A stretch of 22,529 bases of DNA from a virus, in the IMG/VR virus record IMGVR_UViG_3300018081_000021, positions 1-22,529 of that record; one strand, 5' to 3'. The notes beneath the pieces were generated by a model. The model saw nothing but the letters and a program-made list of their open reading frames with translations. It made no database searches and had not been told where the DNA came from. This document shows, one piece after another, positions 8,461 through 22,529 of this stretch. Positions within the stretch are counted from its first letter, which is position 1; every line of letters starts with the position of its first letter. The position numbers and the translations under genes are program-made.

Positions 8461-8723
8461 ACAAGTGGCAGCGTCTTTACGCTAAGAAGAAGGCCAGGGG
8501 CATCTGCACGAGGGACAGTAATCCCGCTCACCCCGGGGCAACACTGTGTTGGGAGTGTTTGTGCAAAAGGGGAGAGCGGCGAATTAAGAGGCCAGGGAGC
8601 CGACTGCCTAACAAATGGGAAACAGTCCCCTGGTGGAGTTGGAAACCGCCGTTAATTGCTCACGTGCTGGGGGTGACCCAACAGGCGGTGCATGCGCACA
8701 TCAAAAAGCGAAAAGCTCGATGA
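8457..8723 (+). CDS. 88-aa zinc-finger/HTH DNA-binding protein
   Basis: GTG 8457 overlaps the loader stop as GTGA, which decides the start. Residues about 17-36 contain CTRDSNPAHPGATLCWEC, a compact Cys cluster also seen in small phage DNA-binding proteins. The C-terminus has a helix-turn-helix (LIAHVLGVTQQAVHAHIKKR) preceded by WETVPWWSW. It probably binds DNA or RNA as a regulator in the replication operon. It ends in an ATGA overlap with the next gene. No named family. Confidence 0.7.
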   Translation: MNKWQRLYAKKKARGICTRDSNPAHPGATLCWECLCKRGERRIKRPGSRLPNKWETVPWWSWKPPLIAHVLGVTQQAVHAHIKKRKAR

Positions 8724-9589
8724 AGGTCGCCATTCTGGGAACCGGCTACGTGGCATCAGCCTATGCTCGGGCTTTACACTTCCTGGGCCATCACCCGCTG
8801 ATCCTGTCTCGTCATTGGATCAACTATTTTGATCCGGACCCATTGGGTCTGTGTTTGCGTTCTCATGGCACCGAACTCCTCATCAATGCGGCGGGGTTTA
8901 ATGGCGCGTCAGTCGATGACATCCGGGCCCATCAGGACGCGGCTTATCATTCCCTGGTGAGCCTGCCCGCTTACGCTTCTCGCCTCGCCCGGGACCTGGA
9001 CATTCCTTTTCTCCATGTGTCCACCGGGTGCGTCTTTAATGGCGATTATCCCTGGAGTGAGAGTGATAAACCAAATTTCACGCCCGGCCTCTATCAGCAT
9101 TACAAATTGTTCGCCGAAGAGGACGTGCTGGCCTCCAAAGCCAGGGCCTACATCTTCCGCATCCGGATGCCTTTTAGCTGGCATCATCATCCGCGCAATT
9201 GGCTGACGAAATTGTGTCGACATGAGAAAATCTTGGATGGGCTAAATTCGGTGACGTTTCTGGATGAGTTTGCCCTGCGTTCGTTTTGGTTGATTAAGGA
9301 GAAGAAGGAACCCGGGATCTATCACGCGGCCTATCCCGTGCCCGTGCGCACAGCCGAGGTGGTGCGAATGTTGACTGAAGCTAAGTTACGCTCCTGGCCC
9401 ATCGCCTACTGGGACCGACAGGAGTTCCAGAGCCACCACACCCAACGCAGTGAGGCGATTCTGGATTGCACGAAATTCCAGAAAGCTTACGGCTCGGAAT
9501 TTGGCGATCCCATTGCTGCCATCCGTTGGTGCATCGAGAATTACGGAGGGGTCGGTCCAGTCGGCCGTCCGCCCGCTTCCGCAATGTAA
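8720..9589 (+). CDS. RmlD-like sugar-nucleotide reductase (extended SDR)
   Basis: 289 residues from ATG 8720, which forms ATGA with the previous stop. MKVAILGTGYVASAYARAL is a Rossmann nucleotide-binding start. LLINAAGFNG (53-62), FLHVSTGCVFNGD (97-109) and YQHYK (Tyr125, Lys129) correspond to the NAA, STDxVFxG and catalytic YxxxK motifs of dTDP-4-dehydrorhamnose reductases. The Asp usual after Ser-Thr is Gly here. The enzyme class reduces or epimerises nucleotide sugars for surface polysaccharide. In a phage it could alter host surface sugars or glycosylate DNA or virion parts. No partner RmlA/B/C genes are in the window. The last 49 bases run under the convergent gene ending at 9541. Confidence 0.8.
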   Translation: MKVAILGTGYVASAYARALHFLGHHPLILSRHWINYFDPDPLGLCLRSHGTELLINAAGFNGASVDDIRAHQDAAYHSLVSLPAYASRLARDLDIPFLHVSTGCVFNGDYPWSESDKPNFTPGLYQHYKLFAEEDVLASKARAYIFRIRMPFSWHHHPRNWLTKLCRHEKILDGLNSVTFLDEFALRSFWLIKEKKEPGIYHAAYPVPVRTAEVVRMLTEAKLRSWPIAYWDRQEFQSHHTQRSEAILDCTKFQKAYGSEFGDPIAAIRWCIENYGGVGPVGRPPASAM

Positions 9590-19494: not shown

Positions 19495-21213
19495 ATGGCC
19501 ATCAGCGCAAACATCTTCGAAAAGTGCCTCCCCGCTATTGGTAACTCCATCGCCTCCTGTGGTGCCGTCACACTCTGTGACGTTATCACCGCCGAAAGCG
19601 ATGAACTTTCCAATATCTTCACCGATGGTTCCGGACACTTCCGGGACCTGCGAGCCCTCCTTGCCACCCAGTTTGAGATCAAGGCCTGCGGAGCCAGAAC
19701 CAATGGGCTCTACGATTTCCTCATGTCCAACAAACGGATGATGGGAAATAAAAAGATCGTCATGCCGCTTGGTCCTGGCAACTCCGAGGTATCTCCCTTC
19801 GTCCTGGCCCACCAGGATTCCGTCATCAACGCGGAATATTGGTCCTTAAAGAACCTCTTCGTCTCCGGCGGCACCTACACTATCCACGTCAACTCGCGGG
19901 CGAGTATCCCACTGGATGAGCAGTGGTTTGTTACGGGCATGAACATTTATGTCAATGCTCGGGCTGCCAGCGGAACGGCCCTGCGTGGTTCCTTCTTGGT
20001 CGTCAGCTCTCAGGTTTCAACCTTCGGTGGAGCTGCCACCATCATGATTACGGCCACCGCCCAAAACGACACCTTGGGTTGGGTAGCCAAAGCCGCCTTC
20101 TCCGGTTTCACGGGGGGTGCCCCGCTCTCGGCGGGTGTGGTCATCCGGGGTTCCGCCAACGTCCAGGACGTGGAACGCTGGTGCTACAACCGCCCCGCGC
20201 TCAACCCCAGGAAACACGTGCCATTCTGGTTTGAGACCGACCGTTACACCATGTGCACCGACCAGCTCTATGAAGCCTTCTTCAAGAAGCTGCAAGGTGG
20301 CAACGAATACTTCAAGCTCTTCGGGGATGTGGATTCAACCCAGCGCAATAAGCAACTGGGCGAGATCTTCCAGCGGGAATGGATCAACAAATTCTTCTGG
20401 AACAAACGCATCTCCACCAACCAAACACTGGCCACCTACCGCTCGCTGGCCGAGGTGGTGACGTTCACTAACTCCACTCAAGGCCTCTACGTTCCCGGTG
20501 AAGGCCGCTGCGTGGGCCGCAAAGCCAATGCCATCGGAGTGTATGAGCAGTTGGCCGAGTGCGGTCAGGTCTTTGACTTGCAGAATCAACAGCTCAACTT
20601 GGTCGAGCTCTTTGAGAGCCTCATCTACCCCATCTGGCGCGCCCGTGGCGACCAGGGCATCCCCAATGATGTCATCGAGATCTTCACCGATAGCTTCACC
20701 GCCTCCCAGATCCAACGGGGCATGATCGAATACTACGACACCCGCTCTGACGGATTGGCCCGGTTCATGATCAATACCGACAAGGTCATGAGCGGCAAGA
20801 TGGGTTCGCTCGGGTTCAACTACAACGAATACGAGCTCCAGTACCCAATCGTTAAGTTGCGCATCGTCACCAACAATTACTTCGACGACTTCGCCACGGC
20901 CATGACGGCGGAGAATCAGGGCAGCGCGGGCCGGTTCTTGTTCATTCTGGACTTCACCAGCATCTATCCGGGCATCATCACCTCCAACTCCAAGAAACAT
21001 ACCACGGGTGAAATCGAGAAGTTGGCGCAAATCGACCGCGACTACGCCTGTGTCATGGAAAATCCTACCCAGGAAGTTGCGCTCAATTCCCTCACCTGGA
21101 CAGCCGTCGTGGAGTGCCCAGCCACCAGTGCGATAGTCGAGAATTTTGACATCACGAGAATTCCTAAGGGTGATGCTGGGCAGACTCCTTACGGGGACCT
21201 TTACCAAGTGTAA
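19495..21213 (+). CDS. Major capsid protein candidate
   Basis: 572 residues from ATG 19495. It starts AISANIFEKCLPAIGNSIAS and contains many beta-rich stretches (IHVNSRASIPLDEQWFVTGM, AATIMITATAQNDTLGWVAK), later FWFETDRYTMCTDQLYEAFF and MGSLGFNYNEYELQYPIVKL. The order portal, scaffold, this gene, connector-like genes is the standard head order and is the main reason for the call; no capsid motif is unique enough. The codons are strongly biased toward C-ending ones (TTC, ACC, ATC), as expected of a highly expressed gene. A hairpin precedes it and a terminator-like hairpin follows. Confidence 0.7.
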   Translation: MAISANIFEKCLPAIGNSIASCGAVTLCDVITAESDELSNIFTDGSGHFRDLRALLATQFEIKACGARTNGLYDFLMSNKRMMGNKKIVMPLGPGNSEVSPFVLAHQDSVINAEYWSLKNLFVSGGTYTIHVNSRASIPLDEQWFVTGMNIYVNARAASGTALRGSFLVVSSQVSTFGGAATIMITATAQNDTLGWVAKAAFSGFTGGAPLSAGVVIRGSANVQDVERWCYNRPALNPRKHVPFWFETDRYTMCTDQLYEAFFKKLQGGNEYFKLFGDVDSTQRNKQLGEIFQREWINKFFWNKRISTNQTLATYRSLAEVVTFTNSTQGLYVPGEGRCVGRKANAIGVYEQLAECGQVFDLQNQQLNLVELFESLIYPIWRARGDQGIPNDVIEIFTDSFTASQIQRGMIEYYDTRSDGLARFMINTDKVMSGKMGSLGFNYNEYELQYPIVKLRIVTNNYFDDFATAMTAENQGSAGRFLFILDFTSIYPGIITSNSKKHTTGEIEKLAQIDRDYACVMENPTQEVALNSLTWTAVVECPATSAIVENFDITRIPKGDAGQTPYGDLYQV

Positions 21214-21319: not shown

Positions 21320-21790
21320 ATGCGCAAGTTCTACGCCAAAGAATTACCCGAATCCCCCGTGTATGTGGCTGGTCACCCCCTCATCTTCGACTTCATGGAA
21401 ACAGAGGACTCTGCGCTCATAGCGGAGCTCGATAAGTGCGTTGCTCGGCACGTGGGTGGGGTAGTTGAGATTTCAGAGGAACAGTTCATTGATGAAATAA
21501 AAAAAAAGGAGACCGGGAACAACTCCGCAAACAGCTTGAGGCCCAGGTTGCAGCGAACCGAGTTACAAGCAGTCCAGTGGGACGCTCTGCGTGCTGCGGG
21601 GGGCGGCGTTAGTAGTCAGTTCGCCAAGCCCCAGTTACAGCGCGAACACAGGCCACACAATCGTTCCGGCCTTCCCTCGGGGGCCTCCCCCAACGGCACC
21701 CACCCGACCCCCGATCCCATTGAGGTGCCCACGGCTGAATCCTTTGGTGAAATCCGGCCGCCTACGGCCAAGCTGAAGGACATCCTATGA
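21320..21790 (+). CDS. 156-aa head-module protein with a possible -1 frameshift site
   Basis: ATG 21320, with TAAGG about ten bases upstream. The first 63 residues look well folded (KFYAKELPESPVYVAGHPLI, IAELDKCVARHVGGVVEIS, EEQFIDEIKKK). At 21499-21508 the codons ATA AAA AAA AAG contain the slippery A AAA AAG heptamer within a run of nine A. In frame, the rest is proline-, arginine- and asparagine-rich and ends in an ATGA overlap with the next gene, so the zero frame is probably used. A -1 shift gives GDREQLRKQLEAQVAANRV and stops at 21612 for a 97-aa product. It may be a small head-completion protein; function unknown. Confidence 0.6.
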   Translation: MRKFYAKELPESPVYVAGHPLIFDFMETEDSALIAELDKCVARHVGGVVEISEEQFIDEIKKKETGNNSANSLRPRLQRTELQAVQWDALRAAGGGVSSQFAKPQLQREHRPHNRSGLPSGASPNGTHPTPDPIEVPTAESFGEIRPPTAKLKDIL

Positions 21791-22529
21791 TCGAATTCCA
21801 AACCTTCTCGGCCTTCCGCTCCATCGTCCAGAACCTGGTCACCCCCGAGGACCTGGCCGAGAACCTGGAAGACTGGTTCCGGGACCAGGTTGGCAATGCT
21901 TTGGCCGATCTGCAGACTCTTATCCCATGGATTCGGACCTTTAACATTAACGGATACACGAAGACCGACGTGGAAGAGTTCTGCGCCGCCAGCATCATGG
22001 ATGGACCAACGGGTAAAATTACCCAAGTCTACGCTTATAAGCCGGGCCGGGATTGCAAGAAGCTCTACTACAAACGGGTCAGCACCGCAGCCATGGATTG
22101 CTGGATGGAACGCCAACGCTGTGTGCAGTGCGACTTAACTCCGCCACCCACCAACATCTATGACACTCCCTACTGCAATTACGTCATTCTGGGCGAAGAT
22201 GCGTGCGCGCCTCCTTATCTATCTGGTGAGGAAGATGACTGTCGGTTTAGAGGGTTGGACGATGACTGCCGAATCTTCACGGTTGGGCCAGACTACCGTA
22301 TTTACGCTGCGCCGAGATTTCCCTGTGGATATAATCTATTCGTCCAATGGCAAGGAATCCGGAGAAAGTGGCAAGATAGTGACCTTGTCCCAGTGGACCA
22401 ACAAATCCGAGAAGCAGTGGTCAATTACGTCGAGCACAAAGATGCCTTAAAGGAGCGCAACTCGGTGGCCATGGTCGAATACATGAGCGAATACACCATG
22501 AACCTGCGCACGCTCAAGTATCGCTACCA
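21787..22529 (+). CDS. Head-module structural protein, 3' end beyond the window
   Basis: ATG 21787 forms ATGA with the previous stop, and the frame stays open for 247 residues to the window edge. It starts IEFQTFSAFRSIVQNLVTPE, then has many cysteines and tyrosines in the centre (FCAASIMDG, RCVQCDL, YCNYVILGEDACAPPYLSGE) and a helical region near the edge (REAVVNYVEHKDALKERNSV, MVEYMSEYTMNLRTLKYRY). Its place two genes after the capsid suggests a head-tail connector or neck protein, by synteny only. Confidence 0.65.
   Translation, partial: MIEFQTFSAFRSIVQNLVTPEDLAENLEDWFRDQVGNALADLQTLIPWIRTFNINGYTKTDVEEFCAASIMDGPTGKITQVYAYKPGRDCKKLYYKRVSTAAMDCWMERQRCVQCDLTPPPTNIYDTPYCNYVILGEDACAPPYLSGEEDDCRFRGLDDDCRIFTVGPDYRIYAAPRFPCGYNLFVQWQGIRRKWQDSDLVPVDQQIREAVVNYVEHKDALKERNSVAMVEYMSEYTMNLRTLKYRY

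Follow-up and report, generated by a model that had tools for sequence, protein, structure and literature searches.

A conserved run of about nine adenines in a dual-coded gene next to the capsid gene points to probable RNA polymerase slippage in a lineage of uncultivated tailed phages

Introduction

Does the gene that follows the major capsid gene in an uncultivated tailed phage encode one protein or two, and, if two, is the second reached at the ribosome or already during transcription? The question is raised by a run of nine adenines within such a gene in an IMG/VR virus record of 22,529 bases; the whole of this stretch, at its full length, is referred to here as the window. For tailed phages, what is known of conserved recoding concerns mainly the ribosome. 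Shifts into the −1 frame occur frequently in structural genes of phages (PMC5009743). The initial annotation of this DNA had proposed a programmed −1 frameshift at a dnaX-type A_AAA_AAG heptamer, with slippage of the transcript mentioned in passing and a miscounted homopolymer as the main rival.

Results

The gene occupies positions 21320..21790 on the + strand and is a 156-aa open reading frame, examined in an alignment of 41 homologues. Its 0-frame product consists of an ordered N-terminal domain followed by a disordered tail with a conserved PPTAK / KPxxGK-type motif at its end. In the AlphaFold2 model of the 156-aa form, residues 1-60 have pLDDT values of 89-93, and residues 61-156 mostly 53-67. 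The N-terminal domain (residues 1-59; 21320..21498, + strand) would be common to both products and is conserved in all homologues; its approximately 60 residues are predicted to fold compactly, with strands and two helices. The tail had been described as odd in composition, a description that lost its force once the relatives were found to share the same low-complexity tail type with conserved motifs. The end of the 0 frame overlaps the start of the next gene as ATGA at 21787, exactly as first reported. The gene product had no significant Pfam or PHROG match, and a fold search returned nothing significant in the PDB, the best BFVD hit (E=4e-3) being an unnamed protein; we therefore assigned it no function. 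The gene's neighbors are the major capsid gene on one side and an unassigned gene of ~250-300 aa on the other, and a capsid-associated or head-completion role is our guess from this position. Neither position nor sequence points to the tail chaperone that had been brought up at the outset.

The upstream neighbor (19495..21213, + strand) encodes a 572-aa protein with no significant Pfam or PHROG match. Its AlphaFold2 model (pTM 0.69, 39 sequences) retrieved the capsid proteins of Vibrio phage VP1 (E=1.6e-13) and crAss001 (E=6e-13) in a Foldseek search of the PDB. On the basis of this model, the protein is the major capsid protein, with the HK97 fold, and the gene under study was rightly placed behind the capsid gene. 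The next gene (21787..22529, + strand) is still open at the window end and drew no Pfam match, nor a significant one in PHROG; its position suggests a part in head-tail connection. Elsewhere in the window, a 324-aa open reading frame at 8615-9589 weakly matched nucleotide-sugar epimerases (phrog_540, E=0.009) and is possibly a sugar gene, and a 257-aa frame on the − strand at 1062-1835 (WYKADALALNNNDPVETWPDSSGNGHDG) resembles a concanavalin/LamG-type domain on visual inspection.

The candidate slippage site is the A9 run at 21499..21507 (+ strand), which reads in frame as ATA AAA AAA AAG. The −1 frame begins with GGA at 21508, overlaps the 0 frame and reads GDREQLRKQLEAQVAANRVTSSPVGRSACCGGRR, that is, 34 codons, before stopping at TAG 21610-21612 (21508..21612, + strand). 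The −1 route yields a 97-aa product with the C terminus GRSACCGGRR, whose last six residues, CCGGRR, form a cysteine tail encoded at 21592..21609 (+ strand). In-frame reading, codon count and product length were thus all as initially described. Judging from the window's own A-to-A frequency, ~0.10 runs of nine or more A would be expected in it by chance; if protein and codon usage are kept constant, A9 falls at this site with a probability of ~0.036 per gene, as against A9 or A10 observed in 77 of 78 genes. The run is therefore beyond chance. It also opposes codon usage, because lysine is mostly encoded by AAG in the related capsid genes (579 AAG, 186 AAA). In 41 related loci (392 kb), a single further A9 turned up and nothing longer; this other A9 (L032:4693) lies ahead of the capsid gene, in a stretch corresponding to the 3′ part of the scaffold-like gene.

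The first six homologues, 45-67% identical, all carried A9 and had −1 frames ending in GR(S/K)ACCGGRR, and broader searches based on capsid sequences and alignments raised the number of loci above 100. A first table made by searching for the run held 48 A9 and one A8. Since that table had used the run as its search criterion, a second survey employed an HMM built solely from the domain that precedes the run, so that the run itself was ignored. It gave 80 distinct matches, from which L081 (at a contig end) and L120 (a second, weak alignment at a locus already counted) were left out. The remaining 78 homologous genes, all near related capsid genes, comprised 67 with A9, 10 with A10 and one with A8, with none below eight and none above ten, and the run sits where the N-terminal domain ends in every one of them. 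Clustering at 60% domain identity left 46 clusters (40 A9, 5 A10, 1 A8). In the sole A8 homologue (L085:5913-6368; A8CG, where the near relative L074 has A9G), the −1 cysteine tail is retained, and the shorter run is possibly a weakened site or a base error. In L084 and L116, where inserted genes put several kilobases between the capsid gene and the gene under study, an A10 run and a −1 tail ending in SCCGG are retained. Seven further loci (L027, L046-L049, L054 and L060) have at least ~1 kb of additional sequence at the same place, with A9 intact and with reading frames that, by eye, look like homing endonucleases. The gene was not matched in the capsid-bearing records L136 and L137 (20.9 and 16.0 kb), which may reflect fragments, divergence, displacement or loss.

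Several lines of evidence bear on whether the −1 frame is coding. A C-x(0-3)-C tail occurs in the −1 frame of 77 of the 78 genes, the exception (L180) being truncated by its contig end; the tail ends vary (CCGGRR, CCGG, CCGRSRRR, CSACGH, CRRCGH, CRSCG, CNCG). Across all 78, the 0-frame tails contain 0 cysteines in 6,801 residues and the −1 tails 162 in 3,239. In 12 pairs of relatives, third-position divergence was 0.195 in the overlap, compared with 0.331 upstream (p=9e-7) and 0.365 downstream (p=9e-9), and this halving indicates that both frames are under selection. The +1 frame is not conserved and ranges from 3 to >200 codons among the homologues. Frames that overlap lack independence, so conservation of the −1 peptide might merely follow from that of the 0-frame protein. 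When synonymous sequences were drawn by codon usage with the 0-frame protein fixed, however, such a cysteine tail arose in only ~0.1-14% of draws per gene (geometric mean ~2%, 41 distinct genes); the genes being related, these values cannot be multiplied into a probability, although the lineages are deep. Moreover, the −1 peptide changed at 23% of positions within the overlap but at 42% downstream, where this frame is non-coding (p=5e-10), whereas the 0-frame peptide changed equally in the two parts (21% vs 20%). We therefore regard mere by-product conservation as very improbable. An artefact, be it a miscounted homopolymer or a broken gene, is refuted by the homologues: some sequencing methods do err on homopolymers, but run and −1 tail recur in dozens of independent contigs, down to ~35% capsid identity, and conservation extends to both frames, one of which either count would disrupt. 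The search for a homologue lacking the run, which could have spoken for a miscount, found no gene among the 78 with fewer than eight A, and alignment over the overlap showed conservation in both frames. Taken together, these comparisons support the view that the gene is dual-coded, with a −1 frame that is genuinely coding and conserved and is entered at the A run, and the expectation that two products are encoded was borne out to that extent.

We next consider where the shift would take place. The run occurs in all three codon phases (phase 2, 0 and 1 in 46, 17 and 15 genes) and is followed by G, C or T, as in ATA AAA AAA AAG in the window, GCT AAA AAA AAA GCC in L063 and CAA AAA AAA ATC in L027. 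On the capsid tree, we counted ~17 changes of phase as against 6 changes of length, with lengths always within 8-10, and in the sister pairs L044/L045 and L021/L056, the phase differs while nine A are retained. That length is conserved and frame phase is not favors slippage of RNA polymerase over a ribosomal shift. The A_AAA_AAG heptamer, proposed at first as the key element, is in frame in only 29 of the 78 genes, the window included; genes that share the window's phase often have it. The feature retained throughout is a stretch of 8-10 A, whatever the phase. Several published measurements are relevant here. In many bacteria, selection against slippage runs becomes visible from nine A or T, and about half of the product of Thermus dnaX arises via slippage on nine A's (PMC1088944). 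The RNA:DNA hybrid is 9 bp, and transcript insertions are mostly of 1 nt (PMC5574713). Slippage of RNA polymerase is likely at this site because the run fills such a ~9-bp hybrid, as it does in Thermus thermophilus dnaX; for slippage of the dnaX type, length rather than phase is required, and the run lies at the threshold of ~9.

Two ways of shifting during translation have to be set against this reading. In ribosomal −1 frameshifting of the dnaX or lambda G-T type, the mRNA is unchanged and a tRNA pair slips back one base at A_AAA_AAA or A_AAA_AAG. The former heptamer is in frame in all 78 genes, as any A9 entails, and the latter in the 29 just mentioned; purine-rich Glu-Glu-Tyr codons lie ~10-20 nt upstream, and shifts of this kind have ample precedent in phage structural genes. 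The heptamer matches dnaX and lambda, whereas the two stimulators, a downstream stem-loop and a Shine-Dalgarno element, do not appear. In pseudoknot-free predictions, downstream RNA structure had a mean z of −0.36 in 41 genes (−1.2 in the window) with none conserved, and upstream Shine-Dalgarno pairing energy equaled the synonymous null (mean percentile 0.54), that is, no selection beyond the amino acids was seen. Seven A, or six A and a G, would also suffice for a ribosome, yet none of the 78 genes has fewer than eight; the run persists in every phase, and no other type of slippery heptamer replaces it. We consider this route unlikely, though it deserves to be kept in view. Sliding of the ribosome along the run, which is length-dependent and would likewise be governed by run length rather than phase, appears far less probable: in E. 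coli in vitro, it gave little product on A9/A10 and became robust at A11 (PMC4363877), and runs longer than A10 are absent here. Some observations also weigh against transcript slippage, namely that the +1 frame, as single-base deletion transcripts would use, is not conserved, that every run contains the ribosomal A_AAA_AAA and that runs longer than ten are missing. A search for a phage-type RNA polymerase (PF00940) in 12 long records gave no match, but was uninformative, as the positive control was unmatched too. On balance, dual coding with RNA polymerase slipping on A9 as the source of the −1 form seems to us the probable explanation of these sequence patterns. The ribosomal shift first put forward was thus not borne out in its proposed form, the run being conserved in any phase and lacking a structural or Shine-Dalgarno stimulator, and transcript slippage, mentioned in passing, fits better.

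Discussion

The dual coding described above suggests the following course of expression. The first 63 residues would be common to two proteins. Normal decoding would give the 156-aa form with its long disordered tail. Slippage of RNA polymerase on the nine A's would give an mRNA with one extra A, placing the ribosome in the −1 frame and producing the 97-aa form, the tail of which would be short, basic and probably helical, ending in Cys-Cys-Gly-Gly-Arg-Arg. What the comparison establishes is that both frames are conserved and constrained and that run length is conserved whatever the codon phase; that the slip occurs at transcription rather than at the ribosome, and that both forms accumulate, we infer. 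As for the cysteine tail, our guess is that it would bind metal or engage in thiol bonding, within the capsid or close to it. L138 and L171/L178 have a longer −1 tail, of 73-78 residues, with CxxCxGxG repeats reminiscent of the DnaJ zinc-finger domain (CPRCHGTGTCRQCGGKRKCYKCGGRGYL); the sole score against Pfam DnaJ_CXXCXGXG, 11.3 bits, is far below the cut-off of 32.7, and the repeats of these two lineages would accordingly be a resemblance to that zinc finger, not membership. The fullest reading, to which we give about even chances, is that an uncultivated tailed-phage lineage has kept, across deep divergence, a nine-A RNA-polymerase slippage site whose phase drifts while its length is held, and which gives part of the output of a capsid-adjacent protein a metal-binding cysteine tail.

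Relatives of this lineage were sought in several collections. No relative was found by tblastn of the capsid, terminase, portal-like and short-form proteins against INPHARED (50,697 phage records). GTDB genomes contained no relative of the gene itself and one capsid match (L088, DTSG01000306.1; coverage 0.08), in a contig of a Planctomycetaceae MAG, which is a weak hint of a host or else a binning error. Within titles and abstracts, in sources covering few subscription journals, we found no description of such double coding, which appears not to have been described previously in this phage group. Transcriptional slippage and phage −1 frameshifts are each already known, and the present case is a variant. 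If true, the fullest reading above would amount to family-wide transcriptional slippage within a structural module of dsDNA phages. The retention of length while phase changes is the variable that tells the two mechanisms apart, and the gene family would make it possible to test cleanly whether transcript slippage has evolved as a strategy in DNA phages. Ordinary gene calling would overlook a conserved protein across the whole lineage, and we caution that homopolymers of this kind in viral assemblies should not be "corrected."

Comparison with known systems helps to place the gene. The nearest solved capsids are those of crAss001 and Vibrio phage VP1, which share the fold of the window's modelled capsid protein; in contrast, the capsid, terminase and portal-like proteins of the window have no INPHARED sequence match, and the gene after the capsid gene of crAss001, gp33 (~330 aa), has no A or T run of at least 7. 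Gene 10 of phages T7 and T3 (10A/10B) and lambda G-GT likewise draw two products from one gene of the structural region via the −1 frame, but their shift is ribosomal and lies in a capsid or tail-chaperone gene, whereas here a separate post-capsid gene is involved and run length is conserved. In potyviruses, P3N-PIPO is a small conserved overlapping −1 frame reached through polymerase slippage, as proposed here, although the polymerase is that of an RNA virus acting on a short site, a GA6-type motif, rather than that of a dsDNA phage system on A9. IS elements and Shigella mxiE/spa13 also use A or T runs for access to a second coding frame; there, slippage fuses two reading frames into a longer product, unlike the shorter product with its own cysteine tail predicted here, and the genes are unrelated. 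The closest parallel in the run itself is Thermus thermophilus dnaX, where slippage has been measured, while here it is read from sequence. Both have exactly nine A in the coding sequence and a normal product alongside a shorter one from slipped transcripts, predicted in our case. The slipped frames of dnaX, however, stop nearby and add no new conserved sequence, whereas in this phage lineage they would open into a conserved −1 module of ~31-75 codons.
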